36,999 bases of DNA, from NCBI GenBank assembly GCA_017553405.1, contig JAFZME010000052.1:1-36999 (forward strand). The letters are read 5' to 3'. The position numbers and the translations under genes are program-made. Each line of letters opens with the position of its first letter. Position 1 is the stretch's first letter. The notes under the pieces were generated by a model, which was given only the letters and a program-made list of their open reading frames with translations, made no database searches and was not told the DNA's origin. Shown here piece after piece: positions 3,110-17,844 of the stretch. The DNA is from Bacteroidales bacterium (lineage in GTDB: Bacteria; Bacteroidota; Bacteroidia; Bacteroidales; UBA932).

Positions 3110-3196
3110 GGGACCGGCGAATTGGAGGACATCAGCCTCTATCGCGGTCGCTTCCTGATCCAAGGTCAGGACGGATTGTTCAGCGTGAAGCGGTAG
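3110..3196 (+). pseudogene. Remnant 3' end of a second propeller-lipoprotein gene
   Basis: Read on the plus strand this gives 28 codons plus TAG, including RFLIQGQDGLFSVK, identical over that run to the end of the lipoprotein gene at 549-1445. At DNA level 3112-3201 matches 1361-1450 at about 75 of 90 bases by eye. There is no start codon and an in-frame TAA lies immediately upstream, so it is a fragment. It overlaps, antisense, the last seven codons of the large glycosidase-like gene. Confidence 0.8.
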
Positions 3197-6100
3197 ATTT
3201 CCGTCCCGACCTTGCTATGCCACAGGGCGAGGTAGAGCCAGCCTTCGCTTATGTCCATACCTTCGGGTTCGTACTTCAGGTCACGGATGTCCTGACACAG
3301 GATCTGCTTCTTCGTCCTGATGTCGTAGACGTGGAGCTTGCAGTAGTACGGCGGATAGCCGGCGCTTAAATATATACGCCCGTCCTGCACGAACCCGCCC
3401 TGGCCGATGCCCACTTCGTCATAGTACATACTCCATTGCACGTCGTCCGCCGTGAGATGGACCTCAGGCTCGTCCGGGGAGGGAAGAGGAAACCGCTTTA
3501 CCCAGCGCTCGCGCCAGCGTATGCCTCCATAGGTGTAGAGGAAGCCGTTTTTACGGTCCACCATCCAGTCCACCGGACCGGGATAGTCGGAACCGTCGGT
3601 GTCGTAATAAATCTTCTGGACGATCTTTGAGGAATCCATCCCGATTTCGGTCACCAGGCAGGCGTGGCCGCCGTTGTCTTCGGAGATATACAGGAGGGGA
3701 AACGGCGATTCCGGCGTAAGGCGCGCAGGTCCGAATACCGCATTGTTGCAATGGGAATCGTTGCCTTCGAGCTTGTAGTAGGACAGCGTGCGTTTTTCGG
3801 CCATATCGTAGATCTGACACCACCCCTTGTCGTGGATGATGACTGCAGTGTCGCCCTGGATGGCAAGGCCCTGACAGGAGAAGCGCCTTTCCTCAGTCGC
3901 CGGGATTGTCGCCACCAGTTCGGGCTCCATGGGCGGGATGCGGTCTTTGAAAACTTCGCCGGAGGGGCCTTTCCCCTCGAGGAAAGCCACCCATGCGCCA
4001 GCGCGCCCGTCCGGCCCTTTATGCTTCACAAGATCCGCCGCCATCACTCCGGAGAAGCTGTCCCAGCCCTCGGCGTCGAAGTGGTCGTGCGGCTCGGTGG
4101 CGTAATAAAAGCGGATGTTGCGGTCGCCGCGGATGGTGATGCGCATATACATCGGCTTGTGGCGCATCGCGCGCGGAAGTTTCCGGGCTTCCTGCAGCAC
4201 TGTGACTCCCTTGCATATCCGCCAGGCCACCATATACTGCCCGTCCGGGAAGTTCTCCCGACCGAAGACGAATCTGTTGTCCCCGTCCTTGAAGACCTGG
4301 AACCCTTTCATCTTGAAACGTCCTCGCTCCGGCGCCTCCACCTTCGCGCTCAGGACGAAACGCTCCTTATTGTCCAAGTTGGCCCGGATTGAGTCGCCGG
4401 GGGTGGGGATGAGAGTGTCGCATACCGACACGAGCACTTTCCCGTCGGAGATAATGGGCTCCACGGTGCGCCAGGACTTTGGCTCCAGTTCTACCCCGTC
4501 GGGGCAGGCAAACGGCTTTTCGGAATAGTTACACCAGGTGATGACACCGTTGCCATAAGTGGTTTTAAAGACTTTCGGGGCCACTTCTTTATGGTCGTCA
4601 ATAGTCTCATACTGCAGGTAGCCATATTCTTTCATATAATCCCATCCCTTGCGGATCTCGACTGCGGAATTGTGGACATCCTCGCTTGTGGCCGCGAACA
4701 GGTCGCAGGTAGGCGTGCCGATCCAGTTTTTGTCGTCGTCCCGGTGGGCCGCATAGAAATAGAAGGTGGGATGTCCGCCGTGCTCCTGCATCTTCATAGA
4801 CCATTCCGGCTCCTTGATCGTGTAGTTGACCGAACGGGAGAATGGGCAGGAATAGATATATCCGTTATAGACAATCTGCCACAGCGGGACGTAGGCATCG
4901 CGAAGCTTCTCAAAACTCAGAGTGTTTGGCCCAAGCATAGAGATATAAAGGGCGAAATCGAGTTCGGAAGACAGGTGGTCATAGCCGCCCTCGGAGGCGC
5001 AGCCGCCAATTTTGTCCTTCATCTCCCTGAGAGTCTTGCGAGCCCACTCGGCCGCCTGTGCGGGATTGTTGTAATGATTGGGATCCGCGCAGGCGTGCGG
5101 CGCTACTATTGAATAGACGTCGTTGTAGCCCACGCCGCGGAAGCCCATCCTGGCGAGCGAGTCGCAGTAGGGGACGACATATTTCTTGTACGCCTGCTCG
5201 TAGCACAGCTCGTACATTCGGCCTCCGCCGTAGACGAACCTGGAAAAACGCTCCCCGGAAGGCAGCAGGGCTACATCGCCAAGGTCGAAATCGGGTGAAA
5301 TCTCATAGCTGTCGCCGGTGCAGATGTGCGGGACAATCCGGAAGCCCCTTTCCTGCGCATAGGCAATCAGATGGCGGAGCCTCTCCTCGCCGCCCAATGC
5401 CGGTTCAGGAGGAAAGATGGTCGGGAAGCGGCCGTCGTGGCCGCGGATGTTCCATCCCACAAGCGTGATCTGGGCGCCAGGGACTCCCTGCGCGATGAGC
5501 GAATCGATGATCTCGCACACCTTGTCGAAGGTCACGGCCACCTTCATCGGCGGTTCGTTCTCGAGTGTCTGGTGCTCCACAGTGCAAGGCACTGGCTTCC
5601 AGCCCTGCCGGATGCGGATTTCCGGATAGTCCACGGCATATTTCAGCAGCGGGCGGTCCTTGACCTTTTCCTTCAGGGGCTGAAGCCCGCCCTGCGCAAG
5701 CCGGATCTTCCGGTACAGCCTGCCGATGCCGGCGTAGGTCGCATTCTCGCCTTCGAGCTTATAGAAACGGAGCACCCAGTCGCCGTCGTAGGACTTGTGG
5801 TCGAACGGAGTCAGCGCAAACACCTGTCTGTACTGCCCGCCGCGGCAGACTATCGAGACGTGGCTGTCGAAGCGGTAGTGAGGAAAGTATGCCATCCAGG
5901 CCTTGCCTTCCTTGACGCACCCCGCAATCGGCATCGGGTGGCGGTGCCTCAGTGAATGCCTTCCTTCCCGGCCTGGAAGCATCTTGGTGACTATGCCTTC
6001 GGCATTCACGTAGTAGCCGTCGGTCCCGGCAGTGGCGCTGGTGAAAACCGGTGTTACATACAGTGTGTCAACCCCGTCAATCTTCGCTTTCGGAAAGACG

Positions 6101-6255
6101 AATTCCTCAAATCCTCTGCCCCTCTTCAGCCTTACGGTATCTTCAACAACCGTCCCGCCGGTGCGCACAATGCGGATATATGCTGGCCCCCCGGCTCCAC
6201 GGCAGCTTCCTGCGGTCAGCGCGGTGACGGTAATCAGTAGGAAAATGATTCTCAT
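3166..6255 (-). CDS. Large putative glycosidase (TIM-barrel, GH101/DUF5696-like) with C-terminal propeller domain
   Basis: A 1029-residue exported protein. The signal has a possible lipobox AGSC (Cys18). Residues ~25-220 are a beta-rich N-terminal domain. Residues ~230-600 look like a TIM-barrel hydrolase with VGWNIRGHDG (266-275), IVPHICTGD, GYNDVYS (D379) and CASEGG (E422). By analogy with the GH101/GH36 superfamily, D379 and E422 are candidate nucleophile and acid/base; this is inference. Residues ~630-775 resemble a concanavalin-like sandwich. Residues ~779-1023 are paralogous to the lipoprotein at 549-1445. The last residues (TLNNPS) are read antisense through a gene remnant. The start lies 1 nt after the hipT stop, so it is probably transcribed from the hipBST promoter. 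Substrate is unknown; a glycan or glycoprotein O-glycan is plausible. Confidence 0.65.
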   Translation of the reverse strand: MRIIFLLITVTALTAGSCRGAGGPAYIRIVRTGGTVVEDTVRLKRGRGFEEFVFPKAKIDGVDTLYVTPVFTSATAGTDGYYVNAEGIVTKMLPGREGRHSLRHRHPMPIAGCVKEGKAWMAYFPHYRFDSHVSIVCRGGQYRQVFALTPFDHKSYDGDWVLRFYKLEGENATYAGIGRLYRKIRLAQGGLQPLKEKVKDRPLLKYAVDYPEIRIRQGWKPVPCTVEHQTLENEPPMKVAVTFDKVCEIIDSLIAQGVPGAQITLVGWNIRGHDGRFPTIFPPEPALGGEERLRHLIAYAQERGFRIVPHICTGDSYEISPDFDLGDVALLPSGERFSRFVYGGGRMYELCYEQAYKKYVVPYCDSLARMGFRGVGYNDVYSIVAPHACADPNHYNNPAQAAEWARKTLREMKDKIGGCASEGGYDHLSSELDFALYISMLGPNTLSFEKLRDAYVPLWQIVYNGYIYSCPFSRSVNYTIKEPEWSMKMQEHGGHPTFYFYAAHRDDDKNWIGTPTCDLFAATSEDVHNSAVEIRKGWDYMKEYGYLQYETIDDHKEVAPKVFKTTYGNGVITWCNYSEKPFACPDGVELEPKSWRTVEPIISDGKVLVSVCDTLIPTPGDSIRANLDNKERFVLSAKVEAPERGRFKMKGFQVFKDGDNRFVFGRENFPDGQYMVAWRICKGVTVLQEARKLPRAMRHKPMYMRITIRGDRNIRFYYATEPHDHFDAEGWDSFSGVMAADLVKHKGPDGRAGAWVAFLEGKGPSGEVFKDRIPPMEPELVATIPATEERRFSCQGLAIQGDTAVIIHDKGWCQIYDMAEKRTLSYYKLEGNDSHCNNAVFGPARLTPESPFPLLYISEDNGGHACLVTEIGMDSSKIVQKIYYDTDGSDYPGPVDWMVDRKNGFLYTYGGIRWRERWVKRFPLPSPDEPEVHLTADDVQWSMYYDEVGIGQGGFVQDGRIYLSAGYPPYYCKLHVYDIRTKKQILCQDIRDLKYEPEGMDISEGWLYLALWHSKVGTEIYRFTLNNPS

Positions 6256-6256
6256 A

Positions 6257-7144
6257 TTACGCTCTCAAAAAAGAATACAAACGCGAATGATAGTGCTCGT
6301 AGTATAATTTCTTGGATTCCGGGCTCAGGGATGATTCTTGGACCATTTGCTCGATTGCCGGATAGTCTGAACAAAATCTGTCCAGTTCGCGGATGACGGT
6401 AGTTTCATTCAGACCCAGAGATAATCCAAATTCCTTGAATTCTTTATTGCCGACACCTCTTGGGAATTTTCTTCCATCGGCAAAAAGTCCCTTCCTGAGC
6501 CCGAAAATACTGTCATCCGGTAAATGAATATGTGTATCTATCAAGTCATAGGCCGGGGCGAGCCGATAATCCCCATCCGGAGTCATCAGTACCGAGAAAT
6601 TCTTAAGATGTGCATCGCCATTGGAAAACAGGAAGTTATAGAGAATCAGGTCATAGAACTTGACCATCTCGATTTTCCAGGCCGGTAAATATCTGCGGAT
6701 TAGCATCCCGATTTCCTCATAACTGAGAGCGGCGTATTTATAATCCGGACCGTGAGTGTCACGGGTAATTCCCCCGAGTGAGGCAAAGTCTTCCTGTTGG
6801 ATCCTGCTTCCATCAGGAGCGATGTCATAGCGTTTTGTCAAGTAGCCCGGCTCTCCGTTTGCAAACTGACATAACTCGCAGTCGGCGGTCTCTATATGGA
6901 AAACCTTTCTTGCTATGCTCATAGTCAGGTGTTCATTCGCCGGACTGTCTGCCCGGCGTTCAAAATCGGACAATGCAGGTTTAAGGATATATGTCCCTCG
7001 CTCTCCTGCAGACGTAAGCCGGAATTCGCCGTCTTGTTTTATGACGGAGTATTTGCTCTGGGCCCCCGAGAGAGAAAAATGTCCTCGATTCTCATTCAGG
7101 CGTCCGGAATATGCATCATCGTTATTGAACGGCAGAATAATCAT
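6257..7144 (-). CDS. hipT: HipT-like serine/threonine kinase toxin
   Basis: A 295-residue protein matching the kinase core of HipA. It has SLSGAQSK (24-31, Gly-rich loop with an SxS pair, S24 and S26, like the autophosphorylated serines of HipT), YILKP (K55, ATP-binding lysine), SNGDAHLKN (174-182, catalytic Asp177, Asn182) and LAPAYDL (Asp200, metal binding). The HipA N-terminal subdomain is absent and is encoded by the preceding gene, with a 4-nt ATGA overlap. That is the hipB-hipS-hipT layout known from enteropathogenic E. coli, where HipT phosphorylates TrpS. The target here is not known. All catalytic residues are present, so it looks active. Its stop is separated by 1 nt from the start of a putative glycosidase. 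Confidence 0.9.
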   Translation of the reverse strand: MIILPFNNDDAYSGRLNENRGHFSLSGAQSKYSVIKQDGEFRLTSAGERGTYILKPALSDFERRADSPANEHLTMSIARKVFHIETADCELCQFANGEPGYLTKRYDIAPDGSRIQQEDFASLGGITRDTHGPDYKYAALSYEEIGMLIRRYLPAWKIEMVKFYDLILYNFLFSNGDAHLKNFSVLMTPDGDYRLAPAYDLIDTHIHLPDDSIFGLRKGLFADGRKFPRGVGNKEFKEFGLSLGLNETTVIRELDRFCSDYPAIEQMVQESSLSPESKKLYYEHYHSRLYSFLRA

Positions 7145-7467
7145 AGTGTAATGGGAATTACTGTTATGGTCCCCGGGGTGTCTGTTTGTGCAGTTGCGAG
7201 CAATATGCCGAAATCATCTTCACGGTCCAGTTTGTGGATAGCGGCTTGAACCGTCCGGTTGTGACCTTCGGAAAGCATATTCACGAAAAATGGGAACAGC
7301 CGATCCGAATGATATTCCTGCTCTGTTTTCGGCAGCGTAATACTTATTGCAGGAGCTTCTCCGTCCAGAAAATATGCGTCATCATATCTGAAGACATATT
7401 CTCTAGGGGAGGCTTCTGTCAGCACTCCCGCAAGGCGATTATTGTTATAGACGCGGGCGCTTCTCAT
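7141..7467 (-). CDS. hipS: HipS-like protein (HipA N-terminal subdomain)
   Basis: A 108-residue protein equivalent to the HipA N-terminal domain, with VYNNNRLAGVLTE at the N-terminus, ISITLPKTE in the middle and LFPFFVNMLSEGHNR toward the end. In characterised HipBST systems this small protein acts as the antitoxin towards HipT while HipB contributes DNA binding; that role is transferred by family. It overlaps hipB upstream and hipT downstream by ATGA at each junction, so all three should be translationally coupled. A frameshifted hipA is an alternative reading, but two clean ATGA junctions and the separate kinase start argue for a genuine three-gene system. Confidence 0.88.
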   Translation of the reverse strand: MRSARVYNNNRLAGVLTEASPREYVFRYDDAYFLDGEAPAISITLPKTEQEYHSDRLFPFFVNMLSEGHNRTVQAAIHKLDREDDFGILLATAQTDTPGTITVIPITL

Positions 7468-7661
7468 AACTTAATGCAAGTGGTTAGTACAAGTCCAAGG
7501 GTGTCAAGGACTTTATATAAAACATCAAGGGTGGGATTGCCCTCTTCCCGTTCAATCTTGGTAAGAGTGTTTATCCCGATTCCGGAGAGTTCAGCCAGTT
7601 GCCGCTGAGTTACTCCAAGCATTTTTCTGCGTCTTTTTATTTGCCGGCCTATAGAGTCCAT
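7464..7661 (-). CDS. hipB: HipB-like XRE-family DNA-binding protein
   Basis: A 65-residue helix-turn-helix protein: IGRQIKRRRKMLGVTQRQLA, then ELSGIGINTLTKIE and the NPTLDVLYKVLDTLGL helix typical of HipB/Cro-type regulators. The ATG at 7661 is chosen because it lies just downstream of an operator palindrome (7663-7678) and starts the HTH domain; the open frame extends upstream only through operator and promoter sequence. The protein ends on a TGA that overlaps the hipS ATG. It is expected to repress its own operon by binding the two TCACAnTATATTGTGA-type boxes, helped by HipS/HipT. Confidence 0.9.
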   Translation of the reverse strand: MDSIGRQIKRRRKMLGVTQRQLAELSGIGINTLTKIEREEGNPTLDVLYKVLDTLGLVLTTCIKL

Positions 7662-7662
7662 T

Positions 7663-7678
7663 TCACAATATATTGTGA
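7663..7678. promoter_or_regulatory. HipB operator 1 (downstream box)
   Basis: TCACAATATATTGTGA is a perfect 16-bp palindrome ending 1 nt before the hipB start codon, in the leader just downstream of the -7 element. A near-copy is at 7725-7740. Confidence 0.75.
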
Positions 7679-7687
7679 TTTCTTTAA

Positions 7688-7719
7688 CAAAGAAAAAGAA
7701 AATTCCTTGAAAAAACAAA
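7688..7719 (-). promoter_or_regulatory. hipBST promoter
   Basis: On the minus strand TTTG (7716-7719) and TTTCTTTG (7688-7695) are separated by 20 nt. This fits the Bacteroidetes TTTG-N19-21-TAnnTTTG pattern with one mismatch. The promoter lies exactly between the two palindromic operators. Confidence 0.65.
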
Positions 7720-7817: not shown

Positions 7818-10800
7818 CTACTCGATGACGATGTTGGTCAGAGTCGATGTTGAGGCGAAGGCCCCTCCATCGGAAGACTGCGACACCAGGTTGCCGTTGT
7901 TCAGTTCTGTGACGGCAACGCCGTTCAGGGTAGTGCCGGTTGCCACGACGCACTTGGTGCTGGCACCGAAAGTGAGAACGAGACCATTAGCCTGAAGACC
8001 GCCGACATACAGGCCCGGAGCATTGACATTGGCGGCAAGTGCACCGGAAACGGAGCAGCCGTTGAACGTCTGGTTGCCGTTGGATTTGCCCAGGATACCG
8101 CCGGTGTAAACCTTGCTGCCGGAGGCTGACGTGTCGAGCTTGCCGGCAAACGAGCAGTCTGTAAAATCTGTCGCCGCGGTGTAACCGATGATGCCGCCCA
8201 CTTCAGAGTAATCCTTCTCGCAGAGGTTTGCGGTGATGTCGCATTCAACCTTGCAGTTGATGGTGGCCTTGTTGGTGTAGGATGCTATTCCGCCAAGACG
8301 GGTCTTGTGGGGGGATGATACGGTAATGTCTCCGTAGTTCTCACAGCCGGAGAATGTCTGGTTCGCCTTGTCGCAGGCAGACACGCCGCCCACATAGGAA
8401 AAAGCGGTGTTAGACGTGGAGCTGCCAAGGTTGACATTGATGGGCTTCCAGTTCTTGAAACCTGACCTCGTCTTGGCAGTAGTGCCGTTGAAAAAAGCAA
8501 TGACTCCGCCTATATATGCCTGCTTGTTCATCGACGTGACATTGACAGTGATGGGTTTGGAAGCGTCGCGTGTCTCAATCGGAGTTGTTGTGGCGCCGCT
8601 TTCCATAAGGGCGACGGAGCCGCCGACTATCAGCGTACCTGTGGCGAATGTACCTCCGGTTACGGTAATTGCACCGGTGGAGTAGCTGGTGTCGCTGAAC
8701 GTGAGCCCTCCGCAATGCCCGATGAGACCGCCTACGCGAAGGCCGTTGGTGCCGTCGGTCGGATGAGAGACTTCAATGTCGCCCGTGTTGACACAATTGC
8801 CGAAAGAGGAACTGGCCTGTCCGGTAATACCGCCGATAAGCGGGCAGTAAATACCGGCGTTGGTTGAGCCGGTCACTTTGACCTTTCCGTTGTTGGTGCA
8901 TCTTGCAATTCCGCTGGAAGCGTATCCCATAACGCCGCCGAGGCGCTGATAGGAGCCTGCGCACTGCTTATAGGTGGAAGGATCGCCTCCGGTAGAACGG
9001 AACAGGGTTACATCCAGCTCGCCATTGTTGGTGAGGGTGGTGCATCCTGCTGCATCCCCTTGTCCGCAGACGCCTCCGGCGTAGCTGGCGGCGGCCTTGG
9101 TTACGATGGTTATCTTGGCATTGTTGGTGCAAGAAGTGACGGGGATTTTACAATAGGCTACTATTCCGCCGAAGTACATATTCGTGCCGTTTCCGGTGGC
9201 CATCCAGGAATTGATGTCCATCGGACCGTAGTTGTGGCAGTCGGTGATGGCATTGCTGCCATTGTCGGACTTCTTTCCGGCCTGAGCTACGACACCGCCG
9301 AATTCAGGGTCGGCTTTCACACCGGCTCCGCTCGCGTCATCCGTGCCTCCGGCACAGGTGCCTTTGAAAGATACCTTGCCGTAGTTGGTGCAACCGGTCA
9401 CATTCTGGCTGACAAACGCGGCGACACCGCCCAAAGAGACTCCGGTGCCGCAGGCTGTGGATTCGTTGGTGGGTATTCTTACGCTGACATTGCCCTTCGT
9501 CGCATCGCCTTCAACGCCGTTGACGCAGTTGGTGACATCTCCGTCGAAGTAGCCGACAACACCGCCGACCTTGAAGTAGTTGCCGTTGCCGCCGGTTCCC
9601 TGGTTGTCTTCCATACTGCCTCCGTTGGTGAACATATAGGAGATATTTCCGGTGTTGACGCAGTGGTCGGCGATACCCTTCATACTGGCTTCAGAAACTT
9701 TGCTGATACTTGTGCCTCCGGCGATACCTCCCAGATAAGTCTGTTTTGCAGTTGAGTTGACCGTGTAGGAGATGTCGCCGTTGTTGGTGCAATATGAGAG
9801 GGCCAGGTTGGAACCGTTGTTGACATAGCCGGCAAAGGCGCCCAGGTACATATTGCCGGTCATCGACGATGCTGTGATGGAGATGTCGCTGTTGTTGACG
9901 CAGTTTTGGATGAGACCGTAGGAGACACCGGCCAAAATTCCTGCATACATACCGTCGACGTCTCCTTCGACCGGAGTAACGACGGCGTTGCTGGTGATGC
10001 CTTCAAGTGTGCCGTGGTTGTTTAAGTAGCGGGCAATAAAGCCGGCGCGACTGCCTGTGTTGGTGAAGGAGAAGGTGAGGGTGCAGCTGGAAGCCAGGGT
10101 GAAGTTTTTGACCACGCCGTCGGCGGCCGGATCGCTGTCGCGGCCAATAAGATTGAACAGAGGCACACCGACACTTGTCCAGTTGGTGATACTGTGGTTC
10201 TGGCCGTCGAGGGTGCCGGTGAAGGTGCCGGCTTCGGCAGCAAGGGTGACTCCGGAGAGGTCGATGTCGCTGGTGAACTTGGCAAGGCCGCCCTCAGGGA
10301 AGTTGCCGGCGCCGACAAGGGCGCGGAACCTTTCGAGGGAGGCGGCGTCGTGGATGTCGAAGTACCAGGTCCACTTGTTGGTGGCGCCGTCGGCATCGAG
10401 GGCGTCGAACTTCAGGCCTGTGCCCCGGGTGAAAGTCAGGGAGGAAGCGACAACGCGTTCGGCTTTCCAGTCGTCGTATCCTTCAGTGCCGGAGTTCTCG
10501 CCGTGGGTGTTGGAGGTCATCGAGAAGGACAGTTCGGCTACGGCCCCGGGGAGAACCGGAATGTAGTAGTCGTCGTCTTTCGAGAAGTATCCCTCGGCCT
10601 TTGTGATGGAAATGGTGGATGAGGTGCCCGTGCCGGAAATCGAAGCGTCGGCGACGCTGAAAGAGGCCGAGCCGGCGAGAAAGTCGGAACCGGCGGAAAG
10701 GACGATTTCCTTCACTTCTTCAGTCTGGATTTTGAATCTCAGATAGGAGAAGGCGTTCTTGAGGGTTACGCTCCAGTCGTCGCCCGACTTGGTGGCTGTG

Positions 10801-11234
10801 CCGATGGCGAGCATTGCGCCGTGGGCGACATTGTGATCGCCGATGCTCTGGACGGCAGGAAGCGAAGTGGTGATCTTTCCGTCAGCAAAGGTGGCGGATG
10901 CGTCATAGGGATAGAACGCGTAGATGGCAGTCGCACCATCGGAGATTTCTCCCGAGAAGGTGGCTGTGGCACCGGTGTAGTCGGACATAGAGAAGAGGAT
11001 AGGAGCATCGGTGTCGACATCGGTGAATACGCCGATCTGGTCGCCGTCTTCCCAGTAGATCGTGCCGGCGACGGGGTCCTGCACGAAGGTTTTTACGTCT
11101 TTGCCTTCGACCGAGAGGGAGATGGCCTTCTTGGCTCCGTGAACGGGCCGGCCTTCCTGTGGATTGTCAAGTTCCTTGTTGCAGGAAACGACGGTGAGCG
11201 CAAGCGCTGCCAAACAGTAGAAATACTTTTTCAT
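7818..11234 (-). CDS. Giant fimbrillin-like / GLUG-repeat lipoprotein adhesin (A)
   Basis: A 1138-residue protein. It has a lipoprotein signal (MKKYFYC... VVSC), a fimbrillin-like N-terminal domain (about 30-275, with IYWEDGDQIGVFTD and YAFYPYD), a linker NKWTWYFDIHDAASLERFRA, and then repeats of GG(V/I)xG...CxNxGxI filling the rest, which probably form a beta-helix. It ends LVSQSSDGGAFASTSTLTNI, nearly the same as its neighbour at 11435-14719. The ATG at 11234 is chosen because GGAGGAA (11241-11247) lies 6 nt upstream. The earlier ATG at 11247-11249 overlaps that site. Its C-terminal third is closest to the adhesin at 28067-32431, while its N-terminal half is closest to the tandem neighbour. 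It is probably surface-exposed; the ligand is unknown. Confidence 0.85.
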   Translation of the reverse strand: MKKYFYCLAALALTVVSCNKELDNPQEGRPVHGAKKAISLSVEGKDVKTFVQDPVAGTIYWEDGDQIGVFTDVDTDAPILFSMSDYTGATATFSGEISDGATAIYAFYPYDASATFADGKITTSLPAVQSIGDHNVAHGAMLAIGTATKSGDDWSVTLKNAFSYLRFKIQTEEVKEIVLSAGSDFLAGSASFSVADASISGTGTSSTISITKAEGYFSKDDDYYIPVLPGAVAELSFSMTSNTHGENSGTEGYDDWKAERVVASSLTFTRGTGLKFDALDADGATNKWTWYFDIHDAASLERFRALVGAGNFPEGGLAKFTSDIDLSGVTLAAEAGTFTGTLDGQNHSITNWTSVGVPLFNLIGRDSDPAADGVVKNFTLASSCTLTFSFTNTGSRAGFIARYLNNHGTLEGITSNAVVTPVEGDVDGMYAGILAGVSYGLIQNCVNNSDISITASSMTGNMYLGAFAGYVNNGSNLALSYCTNNGDISYTVNSTAKQTYLGGIAGGTSISKVSEASMKGIADHCVNTGNISYMFTNGGSMEDNQGTGGNGNYFKVGGVVGYFDGDVTNCVNGVEGDATKGNVSVRIPTNESTACGTGVSLGGVAAFVSQNVTGCTNYGKVSFKGTCAGGTDDASGAGVKADPEFGGVVAQAGKKSDNGSNAITDCHNYGPMDINSWMATGNGTNMYFGGIVAYCKIPVTSCTNNAKITIVTKAAASYAGGVCGQGDAAGCTTLTNNGELDVTLFRSTGGDPSTYKQCAGSYQRLGGVMGYASSGIARCTNNGKVKVTGSTNAGIYCPLIGGITGQASSSFGNCVNTGDIEVSHPTDGTNGLRVGGLIGHCGGLTFSDTSYSTGAITVTGGTFATGTLIVGGSVALMESGATTTPIETRDASKPITVNVTSMNKQAYIGGVIAFFNGTTAKTRSGFKNWKPINVNLGSSTSNTAFSYVGGVSACDKANQTFSGCENYGDITVSSPHKTRLGGIASYTNKATINCKVECDITANLCEKDYSEVGGIIGYTAATDFTDCSFAGKLDTSASGSKVYTGGILGKSNGNQTFNGCSVSGALAANVNAPGLYVGGLQANGLVLTFGASTKCVVATGTTLNGVAVTELNNGNLVSQSSDGGAFASTSTLTNIVIE
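10305..10413. repeat. Intergenic-paralogue DNA repeat, copy 1
   Basis: A 109-bp block inside adhesin A matches 13790-13898 in adhesin B at about 103 of 109 bases. It encodes the FDALDADG...FDIHDAASLERF linker. Identity this high within otherwise divergent paralogues points to recent duplication or gene conversion. Confidence 0.85.
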
Positions 11235-11240
11235 CATTCG

Positions 11241-11247: not shown

Positions 11248-11252
11248 ATTGT

Positions 11253-11408
11253 TTACCAGTCATTGCCCATATCGTTTTCATTAGCTGCGTCCAGGGACTC
11301 GACATTGCTTCCCTGGAGCTCGTTACTGGCACAGAAATACTTTTCTATGCTCAGCCTCCTCACTTTGCAAAGAGGCTCGGTGTACGTTTTTGTTTTTGAA
11401 AAACTCAT
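11253..11408 (-). CDS. 51-aa small protein, paralogue 1 (ends NDMGNDW)
   Basis: A 51-codon ORF, too short for common ORF cut-offs, fills the gap between two giant adhesin genes. It starts MSFSKTKTYTEPLCKV and ends LQGSNVESLDAANENDMGND-W. Its length and C-terminal half match the second small ORF at 14734-14889, which is also 51 codons and ends DDMDDMGNDW. The stop lies 18 nt before adhesin A's start, with that gene's SD in between. The gap to the upstream adhesin stop is 26 nt, so it sits within the operon. There is no signal peptide or membrane helix, it has two Cys, and the C-terminus is acidic. I do not recognise a function. A leader, chaperone-like partner or peptide substrate are all possible. 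Confidence 0.75.
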   Translation of the reverse strand: MSFSKTKTYTEPLCKVRRLSIEKYFCASNELQGSNVESLDAANENDMGNDW

Positions 11409-11434
11409 AGTTTTGGTCAATTATGTTGTTAAAT

Positions 11435-14400
11435 TTATTCGATTACTATATTGGTCAACGTGCCGGTGGAAACGAAGGTCCCGCCGTCGGAAGACTGAGA
11501 CACCAGATTGTCGTTGGTCAGTGCGGTAACGGCAGTGCCATTTACGACAGCCCCGGATTTCACAACACACTTGCTGCTGTTGCCGAATTTCATAGCCAGG
11601 CCATTCGCCTGAAGACCGCCGACATACAAGCCAGGAACGTTATTGCCTGCCGCGCCGGTGAGCGTCCCTTCGAAGGTGCAGCCGTTGAAGGCGGAAGCGC
11701 CGTTGGATTTACCCAGCAGGCCGCCAGTATAAACCTTCTTGGTGGAGCCGGAAGTGTTGATTGTGCCTTTGTATGACCAGTTGGTCAATCCGGTCGCTGC
11801 AGTGTATGCGCTCACTCCGCCCACTTCCGAATAGTCGCGGCCCGTGCAGGATGCAGTGATGTCACACTCCACCACAGAGCCGTTGGCTGTTTGGTTCATA
11901 TAGGCATTAATCCCGCCGATGCGGATCTTGGCGTGACCGGTATATGTAAGGTCTCCGTAGTTTTTACAGTTGGTGAACACCTGCGAACCGGCGGAAGTGC
12001 CTGCAACACCACCAAGATAATAGAAGCCGCCATCCTGAGAGGTGGTTATGGAAAGGCTGATATTGCCGTGGTTTTCCAGACCGGTATGGGTGTTTGTGCC
12101 GGAACTGGGAGCGGGGATGGAACCGAAAACGCCGCCGAACCAGCTCTGTTTGATGGAACCGCAAGTGATGTCAAGATTGCCATTATTGCGGCAAGCGTTA
12201 TCAAGCCCCTGCGCGATGTTGCTCCGTCCCAAAACACCTCCGCAATAAATGGTCTTTCCGCTGTAAGTCAGGGTTATTTTACCGGAATTGTTTCCGGAGA
12301 AAGCGGCGCCCGCATATCCTACTGCACCGCCGATATCAATATTAGAGGAAAGATTGTCTGCTGCTGTGGTGGTCACAGTCATAGGGTTATTGTTTACGCA
12401 GGCGGAGGCTTCTGCCGTTGCGCGGCCTGCCACTCCGCCGATGCTGAGCTCGCTTGCCAGTTGCTTATAGGTGTCGACGGCTCCGGCTGTGGAACGTACC
12501 AGGCTGAAGGTGAGGTTTCCGTTGTTGGTGAGGCTTGAAATGACAGCTTGTACCTGCCCGATTACACCACCCATCCTCACAAATGCGCCTTTGGATTCTG
12601 TGGCCATTGGACCATTGTTGGAACAGTTGGAAACTGGGGCTTTGCTGTATCCTGCAACTCCGCCGAAGTTGAAGCCGGTGCCGTTACCTGTAGCCATCCA
12701 GCCCTTGAAATCCAGCGTGCCGTAGTTGTGGCAGTCCTCCAGTGAATATGAAGCAGGATCTGCGCTGGAACCAATTTGTCCTACCACGCCGCCTGCGCAA
12801 AATTCGGCTGAAATGCCGTTGCCGGCATTACTTGTTCCGCCGCCAGCGAAGGTTCCTTTTATGTTCACCGTTCCATAGTTCTTGCAACCGGTCATATTCC
12901 TGAGAACAAACGCTGCGACGCCTCCGATGGAGGGGCCGGTTGCGCACGCTGTGCTTTCATTTGTGGGGACAGTTACTGACACCTGTCCTTTGGCCGCGTT
13001 GCCATCTACGCCGTTGGTGCAATCGATAATGTTGCCTTCCCAGTAACCTGCAATGCCGCCTACTTTGAAGTAATTCCCGGTACCACCTGTTCCGGCATTG
13101 TCATCCATAGAGCCGCCGTTTGTGCAGTAATAACTGACATTTCCTGTATTGACGCACTCCTGAATGGTTCCCTTCGAAGAAGTCGCGCTCGCAATCGTAT
13201 TGGTGGAAGTACCGGCCGTGATTCCGCCAAGGAAAACAAAGTTGCCTTTAGCGTTGACACGATACAAAACATTTCCGTTGTTTGTATTCCTGTAAGCGGC
13301 TCGCTTGTCACCGGAGTTGAAATACCCGACCATACCGCCTAAATACACGTTACCACTGCTGACAGAAGATACGGTAATGTTCAAATTTCCGTTGTTTGTA
13401 CAGTTCTCCATCACACCGTAACAGCGGCCGGCCAGAAGGCCGTGGTATGTACCTCCTGTAACCGAAAGCCCGGTCTGGGAAACATTGGCATTGAAAGAAA
13501 TGTTATCCAGTTTTCCGGCGCTCTGAACATCAACGCAAATAAAGCCGAATGAACCCGTCAAAGGAGTGGGGAATGAAAGCGTGCAGGACGATGCGACTGA
13601 AAGGTTTTTCACTGTGCCCGTCACTACATTGAACAGGCCCCTTCCGCTGCTCGTCCAGTTGGTAAGGCTATGCCCCTGGCCGTCGAGGGTGCCGGAGAAC
13701 GTGCCGGCAGCGGCAGCGAGAGTTACACCGTTGAGATCGATGTCGCCGGTGAGCTTGGCGATACCTCCGTTGGCTGTGGAAGGGAAGCTGCCGGCGCCGA
13801 CAAGGGCGCGGAAGCGCTCGAGGGAAGCGGCGTCGTGGATGTCGAAGTACCAGGTCCACTTGTTGGTGGATCCGTCGGCATCGAGGGCGTCGAACTTCTT
13901 GGCTCTGCCCTGAGTGAATGCCATCGCGGCGGTGGCTGTGCGCTCGGCCTTCCAGTCGTCATATCCTTCAGTGCCGGTGCCCGAGCCGTGGGTGTTGGAG
14001 TCGATGGCGAAGGTGAATTCGCCGGCAGGAACCGTTACGGGGAGTACCGGGACATAGTAATATGTGTCCTTGGCAAAATAGCCGGACTCCTTCGTGACGG
14101 TGATGCTGTTGGCGCTGCCGCCGCTTACCATCGCTCCGCCGTTGGCCGTGAACTGAGCCTGTCCGCCGAAGTTGACGCTGCCGCTGCCGATCACGATGGT
14201 TTTCACATCCTCGGTCTGGATCTTAAACTTAAGATAAGAGAACACGGGCGTAAGCGTTACCGATAGATTGGCGCCGGTGCCTGTGGCTAAACCGGTCGTG
14301 AGCATAGCGCCTTTGGCGGTGTTGTTGCTGCCGATGGTCTGCGTCGTGGGAAGTGAAGTGGTGATTTTGCCATTCGCAAATGTGGCATTCTCGTCGTAGG

Positions 14401-14719
14401 GGTAGAATACATAGAAGGAAGATGCTCCTTCTGATACTTCGCCGGTAAAGGTGGCGGAAGCACCAGGATTGCCGGACATCGAGAACTCGCAAGGCGAGTC
14501 GGTGTCCAGATCAGTGAATACGCCGATCTTATCGCCCTCTTCCCAGAGAAGGGTGGCGCCGTCGTTGTCGACATAAGTCTTAATCTCATCCCTGCTCACG
14601 GAGAAAGTTACCGGAACTTTTCCGGTTGCGGGGGTTTCTTCTTCCGGATAGGTGATTTCCTTAGAACAGGAAAGGGCCGCGATGAAGCAAACCAGACAGA
14701 AGTAAAATATCTTTTTCAT
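11435..14719 (-). CDS. Giant fimbrillin-like / GLUG-repeat lipoprotein adhesin (B)
   Basis: A 1094-residue paralogue of adhesin A. It has a lipoprotein signal (MKKIFYFC... ALSC), a fimbrillin-like domain (about 30-275, LLWEEGDKIGVFTD, FYVFYPYDENA), the WYFDIHDAASLERF linker, and then about 800 residues of GGxxG / NxGxI repeats. It ends LVSQSSDGGTFVSTGTLTNI. The ATG at 14719 is preceded by AAGGAGGA with a 6-nt spacer. It carries the same 109-bp DNA block as adhesin A. In the middle of the repeat region (YRVNAKGNFVFLGGITAGTST) it is closer to the adhesin at 28067-32431 than to adhesin A, a mosaic pattern. It is probably anchored at the outer membrane and exposed; the ligand is unknown. Confidence 0.85.
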   Translation of the reverse strand: MKKIFYFCLVCFIAALSCSKEITYPEEETPATGKVPVTFSVSRDEIKTYVDNDGATLLWEEGDKIGVFTDLDTDSPCEFSMSGNPGASATFTGEVSEGASSFYVFYPYDENATFANGKITTSLPTTQTIGSNNTAKGAMLTTGLATGTGANLSVTLTPVFSYLKFKIQTEDVKTIVIGSGSVNFGGQAQFTANGGAMVSGGSANSITVTKESGYFAKDTYYYVPVLPVTVPAGEFTFAIDSNTHGSGTGTEGYDDWKAERTATAAMAFTQGRAKKFDALDADGSTNKWTWYFDIHDAASLERFRALVGAGSFPSTANGGIAKLTGDIDLNGVTLAAAAGTFSGTLDGQGHSLTNWTSSGRGLFNVVTGTVKNLSVASSCTLSFPTPLTGSFGFICVDVQSAGKLDNISFNANVSQTGLSVTGGTYHGLLAGRCYGVMENCTNNGNLNITVSSVSSGNVYLGGMVGYFNSGDKRAAYRNTNNGNVLYRVNAKGNFVFLGGITAGTSTNTIASATSSKGTIQECVNTGNVSYYCTNGGSMDDNAGTGGTGNYFKVGGIAGYWEGNIIDCTNGVDGNAAKGQVSVTVPTNESTACATGPSIGGVAAFVLRNMTGCKNYGTVNIKGTFAGGGTSNAGNGISAEFCAGGVVGQIGSSADPASYSLEDCHNYGTLDFKGWMATGNGTGFNFGGVAGYSKAPVSNCSNNGPMATESKGAFVRMGGVIGQVQAVISSLTNNGNLTFSLVRSTAGAVDTYKQLASELSIGGVAGRATAEASACVNNNPMTVTTTAADNLSSNIDIGGAVGYAGAAFSGNNSGKITLTYSGKTIYCGGVLGRSNIAQGLDNACRNNGNLDITCGSIKQSWFGGVFGSIPAPSSGTNTHTGLENHGNISLSITTSQDGGFYYLGGVAGTSAGSQVFTNCKNYGDLTYTGHAKIRIGGINAYMNQTANGSVVECDITASCTGRDYSEVGGVSAYTAATGLTNWSYKGTINTSGSTKKVYTGGLLGKSNGASAFNGCTFEGTLTGAAGNNVPGLYVGGLQANGLAMKFGNSSKCVVKSGAVVNGTAVTALTNDNLVSQSSDGGTFVSTGTLTNIVIE
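13790..13898. repeat. Intergenic-paralogue DNA repeat, copy 2
   Basis: The partner of 10305-10413. The six mismatches fall in three short clusters. Confidence 0.85.
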
Positions 14720-14725
14720 AATTTG

Positions 14726-14733
14726 TCCTCCTT
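14726..14733 (-). promoter_or_regulatory. Strong Shine-Dalgarno site of adhesin B
   Basis: AAGGAGGA lies directly after the stop codon of the 51-aa ORF and 6 nt before the adhesin B ATG. The arrangement would suit translational coupling between the small ORF and the adhesin. Confidence 0.8.
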
Positions 14734-14889
14734 TTACCAGTCGTTACCCATATCGTCCATATCATCGGGGTCCAGTGATCCCGCACCTGCGCCCTGGATA
14801 TTCTTACCGCTATCCAGGAAATCAGCCTCCAGGCAAATGAAAATCAATTCGCAACAGGGGGTGGTATAAAATACCGTTTCTCTTTTCAT
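14734..14889 (-). CDS. 51-aa small protein, paralogue 2 (ends DDMGNDW)
   Basis: A 51-codon ORF in the gap between the FN3 lipoprotein and adhesin B. It begins MKRETVFYTTPCCELIFICL and ends GSLDPDDMDDMGNDW. Compared with the ORF at 11253-11408, the shared features are equal length, Y-T-x-P-x-C near residue 9-13, an LQG/IQG then SLD segment, and the D-M-G-N-D-W terminus. Conservation at the protein level, despite different third positions in the MGNDW codons (GGT AAC GAC against GGC AAT GAC), argues that it is translated. It begins 14 nt after the stop of the upstream gene and ends 14 nt before adhesin B. No function is recognised. Its tight linkage suggests a role with the adhesin. Confidence 0.75.
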   Translation of the reverse strand: MKRETVFYTTPCCELIFICLEADFLDSGKNIQGAGAGSLDPDDMDDMGNDW

Positions 14890-14903: not shown

Positions 14904-17768
14904 TTATCTGACAAGTTCTATCTTGACGTCGTCAAGGAAGGCGCGGCGCTGGCTCCCTTCCGAGCTGCTGCGGGTGGTGCCGATGGCAATCCTGGCGCCC
15001 GGCTTGACGTTGTTGAGCGTAAATTCGAAATTCTGCATCCCTATCCTGGAGGGAATGGAGAAGGTCTTCTCGTAGGCGACCGTGCCGCTCTGGTAGGCCT
15101 GGTGCATAGAGCCCTGGCTGCCGAGGGTGACGTTGTCAATCACTTTGATGACCGCTTCGCCGGGGTCGAGGACCTTGACACCGTCTTCCGTGTAGGCTCC
15201 CATCCTGAAGGAGACCTTGATGGTAGAGTTGGACGGCAGGCAGTTGAGTGCGGGGGTGAGTATCTGGCACCAGGAGCCGGCGGCGCCCAGTTTGATGATG
15301 CCCGCCATACCGCACAGCGAGCCGGCCGCACTGCCCTCGTAGGATTCCGATATGGCGCCCCAGTCTTTCAGGCGGGACTGCCCGATGGCTCTCCAGGTCG
15401 TGTTGAGGAGGCCGTACTGGGTAGCGGTCTGGCAGAGATAAAGCTTTTCGGAAGAGCCTGCCAGCGGCTGTTCGCCGGATAGCGGCGTGAACGAAGGCAG
15501 GCTGCCCCTGTTGACGCTGCTGAAGCCGGGGAACCCTCCTCCGTACTCGGACAGGACGGGAAGTCCGCCCCAAAGCAGTTCGGAGAAATCTTCGAACAGG
15601 ATGGTCCCCGCTGTCGACACTGTGCCGGAGGGGAGAGTGACGACGCCGGATGCCGCAGTCGTGACATCCATAGTCCCGCTTATCTGTAGATCTTTGTTGG
15701 TGACGTTGAGGGTGTAGGCCGTCGACGGCTCAAGGCCGGTAAATACGAAGGACGGCCCGGTGGAAGCGTTCCACAGGGACAGGATATTGTCCGTCGCGCT
15801 CACTGTCATTTCATTAAGATCAGGTTCGCCGTATGCCGTGAGGGACAGCCGCACCACAAGCGACGAGCCCTTGTAGAGTTCGAGCCTGTAGCCGGTGAGG
15901 ATATCCATCGACCAGTTGCTGTCGGTGTACCAGCGGAAACCGATCTGCGTGGCATCGACGAAAGGTGCCGAAATATGGACGCTCTTCGTGACGGCGGGGG
16001 TGGTGACGGTCTTCACTTCCGACCATTCCGAAGCGAACAGATCGGAGTTGCGGGCCTTCACGCGAACGTCATAGGAGGTAAGCTGCTGCAGGCCGCGGAT
16101 CGTGAATGTGGTATAGGTCGTGTTGCCGGCGGAATGCCAGTCTTCTTCGTCGCTCATCTTGTATTCGACGTCGTAGGACGTTGCATTCTCGCATTCGGAC
16201 CAGTCGGCCCTGATCTGCCCTTCTCCTACGGTCAGCTGGATGCTCGGGGTGGGTACGTCGACGGCGGTCGAACCGTACTCGAGGACCTTTATGGAAATGT
16301 CGTCCACCACGAGTCGGTGCTGTCCGCTCTCGTTCTGGGAACGGTAGCCGCCTATGGCGAGCCGTACGCCGGGAGAGACATTATGGATGGTGAATGCATA
16401 TTCCGACATCGCAAGGTCGTTTTTCAGGTCGAATGTCTGGACCACGATGTCGGAGGAGGCGGATCTGATGATATTGTCGGAGATGGAGGCCCCGTCGATA
16501 ATGCGGATGCAGGTCCCGAGAGGATCCAGGGTTGAAGATGAAGATCCGAAAGGCGATGCCTTGAAGCGGACCTCAACGGTCGCTATGGAAGAAAGCGCAG
16601 AGAGCGGGGGAGTGACGACGGCGCCGACCTTGGACGAGGCACCGACTTTTACCGAACCGGGCCTGGCACAGACCATACCGACAGTGGTGGGGTCTTCTCT
16701 CCATTCGGCCCAGTCGGCAAGCGAGGCCCCCGATCCGATAAGGGCTTTGCGGAGAGTGTTGTACAATCCAATCTCCGTGCTCGGGGTGCACAGGTAATAG
16801 CCAAGGGAACCGCCGATGGGGTTCCATCCTCTTGCGGGAGTCAGGGCGGTGGCAGAACCTCGCTGTTCGGCGGAATAGCCTACGGCCTGGTTGACGGCGT
16901 CGCCGCCCCAGATTAGCTCGCTGAAGTCCTGGAACAGGATGACCTCTCCGGGCTGTGCGTAGCCGCTCTTTTTGTAGATGGCCTTTGCCGGCTCGGTCTC
17001 CAGGCGGAGGGGCTCGCTTCTGAACGTGACGTCTTCGCCCTGCTCGGTGGTAGTGCTGCATTCGGCGATGAACCAGTATGGCGTGCCGGGAGAGAGGCCG
17101 GAGAATATGAAGCGCGGAGCTTTGGAGAATATGGACCCGTCCGGGAAATCCCAGGACACAAGAAGATCCATACACTGCTCGTCGCGGTAGAGTTCAATTG
17201 ATGAAAGGGCGGCTTTGTCTATGGCCGCGTCCGAGAAATCGGTGACCGTCCATTCGACTACGGCAGTGGTCGGGGACACGTCCAGAAGACGGGCCGAAGC
17301 GCCTGTGACCGCTTCGATGTTTTCGTTCACGATGCCCTTTCCGAGTTTGATTACGGCCTTCTTGCCGGAGGCGTCGGTCACATAGACCCAGTCGGAATAG
17401 ACGGAACGGGGGTAATTGGCCCTTACCCTGGCATAATACTTTGAATTTACGGTCAGTCCGTTGAATATGATGCCGTCGTTTGTGCCGGACTTCGCCTGCA
17501 GGGTCTGCGACGCGGCGCCGGAATATACGTTGGCTCCAATCTCCGGATCTTTTACAATCTGTGCCGTGAATGACACTGCGCCTGCGGCTATGGCGTTGTC
17601 AACCTCCCAGTAGAACCCGAGGGCCGTGGAGGATGAGTTGGTCTCATCGTAAGTGACTCCGTCCGGTGGGACGGCGGATGGATCGATGCCGGTCTTGATC
17701 TCCCTCGTGCAGGAAATCATTGCCAGGACAGCCGCCAGAAGCGCTATTCGAGATGATATCAGTCTCAT
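14904..17768 (-). CDS. FN3 lipoprotein with two 'ELLWGG' modules
   Basis: A 954-residue lipoprotein (MRLISSRIALLAAVLAMISC). An upstream TTG at 17780 is in frame but adds nothing to the signal, so the ATG at 17768 is preferred. Order: two fibronectin-III-like domains (about 38-270), an ELLWGG module (about 277-493, FQDFSELIWGGD ... VVDDISIKVL), two more FN3-like domains (about 500-710, DWSECENATSYDVEYK), and a second module (about 718-954, FEDFSELLWGG ... FLDDVKIELV). Each module has a conserved G-L-x-NT block, a VK(L/V)GA block, a TP-L block and a terminal DD(I/V)xI strand, as in jelly-roll binding domains. No family name is recalled. First gene of the five-gene operon; probably a surface binding protein. 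Confidence 0.8.
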   Translation of the reverse strand: MRLISSRIALLAAVLAMISCTREIKTGIDPSAVPPDGVTYDETNSSSTALGFYWEVDNAIAAGAVSFTAQIVKDPEIGANVYSGAASQTLQAKSGTNDGIIFNGLTVNSKYYARVRANYPRSVYSDWVYVTDASGKKAVIKLGKGIVNENIEAVTGASARLLDVSPTTAVVEWTVTDFSDAAIDKAALSSIELYRDEQCMDLLVSWDFPDGSIFSKAPRFIFSGLSPGTPYWFIAECSTTTEQGEDVTFRSEPLRLETEPAKAIYKKSGYAQPGEVILFQDFSELIWGGDAVNQAVGYSAEQRGSATALTPARGWNPIGGSLGYYLCTPSTEIGLYNTLRKALIGSGASLADWAEWREDPTTVGMVCARPGSVKVGASSKVGAVVTPPLSALSSIATVEVRFKASPFGSSSSTLDPLGTCIRIIDGASISDNIIRSASSDIVVQTFDLKNDLAMSEYAFTIHNVSPGVRLAIGGYRSQNESGQHRLVVDDISIKVLEYGSTAVDVPTPSIQLTVGEGQIRADWSECENATSYDVEYKMSDEEDWHSAGNTTYTTFTIRGLQQLTSYDVRVKARNSDLFASEWSEVKTVTTPAVTKSVHISAPFVDATQIGFRWYTDSNWSMDILTGYRLELYKGSSLVVRLSLTAYGEPDLNEMTVSATDNILSLWNASTGPSFVFTGLEPSTAYTLNVTNKDLQISGTMDVTTAASGVVTLPSGTVSTAGTILFEDFSELLWGGLPVLSEYGGGFPGFSSVNRGSLPSFTPLSGEQPLAGSSEKLYLCQTATQYGLLNTTWRAIGQSRLKDWGAISESYEGSAAGSLCGMAGIIKLGAAGSWCQILTPALNCLPSNSTIKVSFRMGAYTEDGVKVLDPGEAVIKVIDNVTLGSQGSMHQAYQSGTVAYEKTFSIPSRIGMQNFEFTLNNVKPGARIAIGTTRSSSEGSQRRAFLDDVKIELVR

Positions 17769-17844
17769 ATCAAAAAACAAAAAACAGTGCGTTGCGGGGA
17801 TGCTACGTACTGTCAGGCGGCTGAGAATTTTCCGGATTGCACGA

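Follow-up and report, generated by a model that had tools for sequence, protein, structure and literature searches.

A 36,999-nucleotide stretch of a Bacteroidales genome (GTDB lineage UBA932; assembly GCA_017553405.1, contig JAFZME010000052.1), referred to here as the window, carries two giant genes for lipoprotein-type adhesins, each preceded by a small open reading frame (ORF) of 51 codons. Our subject is these two small ORFs, A and B, and the family to which they belong, whose members may encode precursors of ribosomally synthesised and post-translationally modified peptides (RiPPs). A first-pass annotation of this DNA had reported the twin ORFs without stating a strand, and we found them at the positions it gave (Table 1); the plus-strand frames across 11253-11408 and 14734-14889 are unrelated, and that reading was rejected. 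The predicted peptides are 40% identical and end in NDMGNDW (A) and DDMGNDW (B), and the codons for the shared MGND differ at third positions (GGC/GGT and AAT/AAC), as the annotation had pointed out. At the place next to each small ORF where it put a Shine–Dalgarno (SD) sequence, an SD-like stretch is also present, lying between the stop codon and the adhesin start. Its further statement, that the small ORFs fill the only gaps in the adhesin operon, applies to the stretch from the fn3-containing lipoprotein-type gene through the two adhesins. The fn3 gene is probably in the same operon as the two pairs.

Table 1. Twin small ORFs and partner genes of the window, with predicted parts of the peptides.
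Feature	Position	Strand	Remarks
Putative precursor peptide gene A	11408..11253	minus	MSFSKTKTYTEPLCKVRRLSIEKYFCASNELQGSNVESLDAANENDMGNDW, 51 aa + stop; hidden Markov model (HMM) E = 1e-13
Gene A, inferred leader	11408-11334	minus	codons 1-25
Gene A, inferred core	11333-11256	minus	from C26; candidate phosphoserine S28
SD-like GGAGG	11247-11243	minus	between precursor A stop and adhesin A start
Partner adhesin A, lipoprotein type	7818..11237	minus	MMKKYFYCLAALALTVVSCNKE; sole Pfam hint a sub-threshold GLUG match; further in-frame ATG at 11249
Putative precursor peptide gene B	14889..14734	minus	MKRETVFYTTPCCELIFICLEADFLDSGKNIQGAGAGSLDPDDMDDMGNDW, 51 aa + stop; HMM E = 8e-13
Gene B, inferred leader	14889-14818	minus	codons 1-24
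Gene B, inferred core	14817-14737	minus	from L25; candidate phosphoserine S27
SD-like AAGGAGG	14733-14727	minus	between precursor B stop and adhesin B start
Partner adhesin B, lipoprotein type	11435..14719	minus	MKKIFYFCLVCFIAALSCSKE; no Pfam match
fn3-containing lipoprotein-type gene	14904..17780	minus	directly upstream of small ORF B; coordinates of the listed ORF; translation may begin further inside

Relatives of the two ORFs were collected with a family profile whose alignment was grown from 2 to 18 and then to 55 sequences. Among the six-frame ORFs of the window this profile recovered A and B, and the next-best ORF had E = 8. Because the profile was built with both window ORFs, independent support for them comes from small ORFs at the equivalent place in three loci (L203, L204 and L207) of the metagenome-assembled genomes UBA3764, RUG12515 and RUG14270, where the downstream proteins are 64, 63 and 46% identical to adhesin B over the best segment; those in L203 and L204 are full-length orthologues at 64-65% identity. 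The small ORFs of these loci end in MGIDW, MGVNW and MGDDW, with that of L207 a weak match (E 0.01). Scans of ORFs A and B against Pfam and NCBIfam gave zero matches at E ≤ 1. For eight relatives scanned at E ≤ 5, NCBIfam returned none and Pfam a single chance-level match (DUF3072, E = 0.059), and three further relatives had no NCBIfam match.

At a match threshold of E ≤ 0.01, the profile found 743 family matches in 129 of 198 family-level genomes (completeness ≥90%, the window's genome included), with 20 in the window's own genome. Wider draws gave matches in 14 of 247 order-level and 4 of 296 phylum-level genomes, both counts including the window's genome and some spurious matches. In the regions that were read closely, members had E ≤ 0.0012 and other ORFs E ≥ 1, apart from one obvious member at 3. 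Three matches judged spurious (L028, L084 and L085) are excluded from the counts of signature, length, motif, selection, SD sequence and covariation that follow, and are included in the 126 matches used for downstream genes.

Across 123-124 distinct members the signature is Y-x-x-P, a Glu at +13 (82%), and then [FI]-[CA/L]-x-S, with [FILV] in 98%, C/A/L in 95% and Ser in 78%; Tyr and Pro are invariant, partly because both define the register. The tails are variable and acidic (25% D/E and 2.7% K/R), and 108 of 124 have an aromatic residue within the last six positions. The median length is 47 aa, most members having 40-57 aa. We had considered MGNDW as a hallmark of the family and rejected it, as it is a tail variant of the adhesin A/B class and its orthologues; the hallmark is the N-terminal YxxP...E..[FI][CA]xS. 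Of 30 independent pairs of relatives, 18 had measurable synonymous divergence (dS), and in these the ratio of nonsynonymous to synonymous divergence (dN/dS) was 0.13-0.62; the pairs were selected by protein identity, which biases dN downwards, and the window pair A/B is outside the count. If the interpretation given below holds, the 743 matches would mean that hundreds of small genes are explained, the tested members of which have no Pfam or NCBIfam model.

The gene that follows a family member is usually that of a lipoprotein. Enough DNA could be read downstream of 126 distinct matches, and in 105 of these the next gene is an ORF with a lipoprotein signal, at a distance of -53 to +80 nt (median 12); the same test was positive for 77 of 1500 other ORFs of 40-75 aa and, among long ORFs from these regions, which are rich in lipoprotein genes, for 101 of 913. 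Of the 21 matches left over, at least five (L021, L026, L087, L202 and L242) precede lipoprotein-like genes missed by the strict pattern or distance limit. The complete partner proteins that were read have about 300-2200 aa, many of them >600, and Pfam gave no fimbrillin match in many partners, including the two of the window. The fimbrillins of Bacteroidales (Fim/Mfa) are lipoprotein-type adhesin subunits at the cell surface; they differ from the partners described here in being common in genomes without any precursor. In our searches of the open-access literature, none of the papers listed dealt with a small-peptide partner of fimbrillin genes.

The tail of the small ORF, its putative core, follows the type of the adhesin more closely than the leader. 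Core similarity rose from -0.01 to 0.15 at 20-40% adhesin identity (83 pairs, p = 2e-22) and leader similarity over the same pairs from 0.28 to 0.33 (p = 0.001), while adhesin pairs that are 40-60% identical (23 pairs) had values of 0.42 for the core and 0.47 for the leader; the pairs are not mutually independent. A shared leader with a partner-matched core is what would be expected if a single machinery produced many different peptides, each meant for the adhesin with which it is paired. The covariation and the frequent pairing with lipoprotein genes would also suit an unmodified partner of the adhesin, such as a small cytosolic chaperone, secretion aid or assembly peptide, to which we return below.

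The short spacing is also a feature that would be seen if the small ORF were a cis-acting upstream ORF controlling adhesin translation by coupling or stalling, or through an acidic end that destabilises the ribosome. An SD match of ≥5 nt precedes 26 of 105 partner lipoprotein genes, compared with 33 of 433 other long genes and 1 of 121 precursor starts, which likewise favours such control. Against this, the most conserved part of the family is N-terminal (YxxP...E..F.xS) and not the last codons, and some members lie behind proteases, with no adhesin downstream.

In several genomes, family members share a cluster with genes for a putative peptide-maturation machinery. Precursor, lipoprotein and maturation genes lie on one strand and in one cluster in G011, G049, G009, G122, G089, G839 and G859, with polysaccharide-type genes in between in G859. 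The clearest cassette, in G839, contains the precursor and genes for a lipoprotein (661 aa), an HprK-like protein (236 aa), an S26 signal-peptidase-like protein (165 aa), a PqqD-type protein (88 aa), the nucleoside triphosphate (NTP) transferase NTP_transf_5 (374 aa) and an ATP-binding cassette (ABC) transporter (536 aa). The G839 genes were checked by Pfam and NCBIfam; elsewhere some genes, and NTP transferases in particular, owe their names to position and likeness. A member also heads the modification-gene cluster of G656, which has no lipoprotein gene and encodes HprK-related (287 aa), signal-peptidase-like (149 aa) and PqqD-like (89 aa) proteins, NTP_transf_5 and an MsbA-like ABC transporter. 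The cluster of G349 holds a precursor, a lipoprotein gene, PqqD and a presumed HprK-like ORF, and the opposite strand there encodes a presumed NTP transferase.

Several of these proteins have conserved active-site residues. Ser, His and Asp are invariant in 18 of 18 S26-like proteins, in an order that matches the catalytic residues reported for LppS; the best PDB match of the S26 profile is SEC11A (2.6e-5), and the closest solved relatives are SEC11 subunits. These features point to a predicted leader peptidase of archaeal type, similar to signal peptidase I (SpI). In 13 of 14 HprK-like proteins the P-loop G[KE]SGTGKSTH is present, consistent with a putative HprK-like kinase. The PqqD-type protein of G839 matches PF05402 at 1.2e-8, above the cut-off, and the PqqD profile matches the lasso peptide RiPP recognition element (RRE) TfuB1 (6jx3) at 9e-5; the protein is a stand-alone PqqD-like RRE. 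The NTP transferase PF14907 is present in both Pfam-scanned cassettes (G656 and G839). The exporter is MsbA-like: in NCBIfam the G656 transporter matches MsbA best (3e-77, below the cut-off), and the G839 transporter has ABC_membrane and ABC_tran domains. No macrolactam cyclase (C) or B2 leader protease was found among the scanned proteins of the G656 and G839 cassettes, the other cassettes being checked by gene map only, and the Pfam-scanned ABC transporters of these two genomes have no C39 peptidase domain. We therefore consider it very improbable that the family is one of bacteriocins with double-glycine (C39) leaders: the leader end [CA]-x-S-[GS] is superficially like a GG-type site, but the scanned transporters lack the C39 domain and the cassette has a signal-peptidase-like protein instead. 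The RiPP clusters and bacteroidetocins described from Bacteroidales (PMC10352776; for this and the other papers cited by PMC number, our statements refer to the accessible part of the text) likewise have small leader-plus-core precursors, but with GG-motif leaders and peptidase-containing transporters, and the words 'fimbri' and 'YxxP' occur 0 times in the accessible text.

An unselected count gave further evidence of linkage. Among the matches listed, 4 of 150 precursor matches, counted by eye, lay ≤6 kb from a PqqD match on the same strand (expected 0.43, p = 0.001). Of these four, two are orthologues of each other, and with three the p-value is 0.01. Outside the family the figure was 4 of 26 (expected 0.05, p = 3e-7). 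The maturation set also occurs, whole or in part, within the window's genus, where 12 of 15 PqqD or NTP_transf_5 regions contained no precursor and three contained one, one of them seen by eye only (E 2.1). By a rough estimate, 3 of 15 is about what copy density alone would give, so there is no linkage signal in these regions, and since the maturation genes there lie mostly away from the precursors, maturation would be mostly in trans. In the window's genome, PqqD, NTP_transf_5 and the first part of an ABC gene are on contig 10, and a second PqqD/NTP_transf_5 pair is on contig 144. By eye, the contig 144 pair (L189, G000) and the PqqD/NTP_transf_5-type genes of L194, L195, L163 and L272 lie amid capsule/exopolysaccharide-like genes.

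The family and the PqqD-type protein are present and absent together. In the same 198 genomes, the precursor occurs in 129 and the PqqD subfamily in 145; 121 have both, 8 the precursor only, 24 PqqD only and 45 neither (Fisher p = 6e-19). PqqD-positive genomes hold 731 of the 743 precursor matches, and of 20 genera the same nine are positive in both searches (p = 6e-6). Within the window's genus, precursors are found in 83 of 98 PqqD-positive genomes compared with 3 of 15 PqqD-negative ones (p = 1e-6; six matches in those three). As a control, fimbrillin PF13149 was found in 173 of the 198 genomes and in 14 of the 15 PqqD-negative genomes of the genus; fimbrillins are thus common where precursor and PqqD are both absent, and fimbrillin genes do not explain the co-occurrence. 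Outside the family, the PqqD subfamily is present in 12 of 15 genomes with a precursor and in 1 of 38 without one (p = 2e-8), the positives including three (G614, G622 and G851) with matches unlike real members, without which the count is 11 of 12. At order level alone it is present in 11 of 12 positive and 1 of 20 negative genomes (p = 1e-6), and the association repeats in nine or ten further families. PF14907 was found in 37 of 61 genomes of the genus and is uninformative alone as a co-occurrence probe, because several precursor-rich genomes do not have it.

An unmodified adhesin partner leaves unexplained this joint presence and absence, the clusters shared with kinase, peptidase, PqqD and ABC exporter genes, and the G656 member that sits in such a cluster with no lipoprotein gene; we regard it as improbable. 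Control of translation by an upstream ORF, which faces the same co-occurrence and shared clusters, is in our view somewhat more improbable still. The first-pass annotation had proposed a functional partner of the adhesin, and much of this stands: the small ORFs are real coding genes, the small-protein/adhesin unit is general, and a leader was among its guesses. The annotation made its proposal depend on homologues beside other fimbrillin-like genes and on purifying selection at the protein level; such homologues exist, and the dN/dS values of the relatives show such selection. Its suggestion of a secretion aid or assembly peptide acting unmodified is unsupported: the family co-occurs with genes for RiPP maturation and export and in several lineages lies in one operon with them, as would suit a precursor made up of leader and core.

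This set corresponds to that of the linear polyphosphorylated peptides (LPPs), RiPPs with the same genes described by Popov et al. 2026 (PMC13381572). LPP precursors have 35-200 aa and the leader motif YxxPxVLxHQxIxFETxxS; an SpI-like peptidase cleaves in an RRE-dependent manner, and Ser3 of the core is phosphorylated (PMC13381572). The likeness extends to the conserved N-terminal YxxP...S with a variable C terminus, to the HprK-like kinase, stand-alone RRE, archaeal-type SpI-like peptidase and MsbA-like exporter without a macrolactam cyclase, usually here with an NTP transferase, and to loci within polysaccharide clusters, there in Bacilli (PMC13381572). The systems differ in host, which is Bacillota there and Bacteroidota here, and in copy number, with 1-3 precursors per cluster there and up to 20 dispersed matches per genome here, mostly away from maturation genes (PMC13381572). 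Most precursors here precede a surface lipoprotein gene, whereas the word 'lipoprotein' occurs 0 times in the accessible text of PMC13381572; the core here is also acidic, often with an aromatic residue near the end. Ser is at +19 from Tyr in 91 of 123 members, compared with +18 in the LPP motif (PMC13381572). As YxxP and Ser are kept and the HQ and FET parts of the motif are not, we term the family an LPP-like variant and not a proven LPP member.

Phosphorylated lasso peptides of the paeninodin and Bsf type are a second point of comparison: they too have a YxxP leader, which a PqqD-type B1 protein recognises, as well as tailoring enzymes of the HPr-kinase-like and nucleotidyltransferase kinds and an ABC exporter (PMC10368454, PMC7533575). 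The scanned cassettes here differ in having no cyclase or B2 protein and a signal-peptidase-like protein instead. A survey of RREs (PMC12710340) treats YxxP as the lasso motif, with 0 occurrences of 'Bacteroid' in its accessible text. The LPP discussion describes the class as restricted to Bacillota, with biological roles unknown, and the results describe the peptidase group as 'predominantly' of Bacillota (PMC13381572). In our searches of the open-access literature, outside which are most subscription papers and all preprints, neither this family nor LPP-like clusters in Bacteroidota came up in the titles, abstract openings and passages covered.

Taken together, we propose with a probability of about 0.78 that the twin ORFs encode precursor peptides, each with a leader and a core, of an LPP-like RiPP system in Bacteroidota that is matured mostly in trans and paired with an adhesin. 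The stand-alone PqqD-type protein would bind the Y-x-x-P leader, and the HprK-like kinase would phosphorylate the well-conserved Ser of [CA]-x-S, which is core residue 3 if the cut is made before C/A. The archaeal-type signal-peptidase-like enzyme would remove the leader, the NTP transferase, where present, may attach a further group, and the MsbA-like transporter would export the linear acidic core. One such machine could serve many dispersed precursor/adhesin pairs. For the cleavage site, we also considered a cut of the signal-peptide kind, obeying the -3/-1 rule, behind [CA]-x-S, for which -3 is C/A/L in 103 of 123 and -1 is S/G/A/T in 99 of 123 members at fixed register; since the LPP phosphoserine is core residue 3 (PMC13381572), a cut before C/A would be more likely.

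A number of observations weigh against this proposal. The HQ and FET parts of the LPP motif are present in 0 of 123 members, and around the position where Ser would be expected it is missing from 7 of 123, in one of these owing to a misread register. Some members precede no lipoprotein gene, among them three directly behind proteases, two of the C10 type and one of the M6 type. The S26-like protein of G839 matches TIGR02228 (E = 1.4e-10) with 41.3 bits, below the cut-off of 51.85, and the HprK-like match to TIGR04352 (3e-7) is also below cut-off, with weak PDB matches (HprK at 0.46). No NTP_transf_5 gene was seen in the G011 and G049 clusters, and the S26 and ABC genes of G349 are in a second locus and not in the cluster of the precursor. 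Several of the operon regions were chosen because precursor and PqqD genes lay close together. The co-occurrence statistics are not corrected for ancestry, and the 38 precursor-negative genomes outside the family are those listed from the earlier order- and phylum-level draws and not a fresh draw. Of the 129 precursor-positive genomes, 8 (12 of 743 matches) have no PqqD match, and 24 genomes have PqqD and no detected precursor. In a looser set of 61 genomes, 9 have no PqqD match and 7 of these 9 have precursor matches at E ≤ 1, with as many as 13 in G340 (85% complete); G784 also has a precursor and no PqqD. Finally, the PqqD, NTP_transf_5 and partial ABC genes noted above are the only maturation genes found in the window's genome, where kinase and peptidase genes were not searched for.

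Competition is a frequent role of RiPPs, and immunity can come from a lipoprotein whose gene neighbours that of the peptide; such immunity lipoproteins are small. A related explanation keeps the same RiPP pathway and takes the product to be a bacteriocin or signal, with the lipoprotein as its immunity protein or receptor, and the covariation of core and lipoprotein would agree with it. The length of the partners is unlike that of small immunity lipoproteins, and the up to 20 precursor matches per genome also argue against this reading, which we judge unlikely, although less so than the rivals discussed above.

Under the proposed LPP-like system, the core would work with the lipoprotein adhesin of the neighbouring gene, most likely bound to it as an accessory part of high charge density. 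Among the ways in which the peptide might act, we put such binding first, with immunity or receptor roles next. We tentatively extend this to a repertoire of modified peptides that equips a repertoire of adhesins, in which up to 20 precursors per genome, the majority next to a surface lipoprotein gene of their own, share one machine for maturation and export and each phosphopeptide serves a single adhesin, its own, as ligand or subunit; we regard this as less likely than not. If true, it would give a first function for the LPP class and a new route to bacterial surface structures from ribosomal peptides. The LPP-like assignment itself, if true, would mean that a sister system of LPPs is widespread in Bacteroidota, with a surface lipoprotein adhesin as its frequent genetic partner there, and that partner would make the role of the system directly testable. 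It points to bacteria of this kind having modified peptides dedicated to their adhesins. The peptide may also belong to other secreted proteins besides adhesins: the members directly behind C10 or M6 proteases are L155 and L156 (G656) and L161 (G741), and two of these three proteases have type IX sorting domains.

The window holds a further paralogue of the adhesins (1454 aa, 28067-32431, plus strand) with extra N-terminal parts; the family profile recognised no small ORF in front of it, nor in front of the fusion-type paralogues L205 and L206. Directly after adhesin A are HipA-type genes (6257-7718, minus strand), with individual ORFs for a helix-turn-helix protein (84 aa), a HipA N-terminal domain (108 aa) and HipA_C (295 aa). 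Positions 3166-6255 (minus strand), which lie downstream of the adhesin operon, encode a 1029-aa protein with a DUF5696 match (9e-39), and in L204 the orthologous adhesin is followed by a 602-aa protein with an N terminus that, by eye, resembles it.

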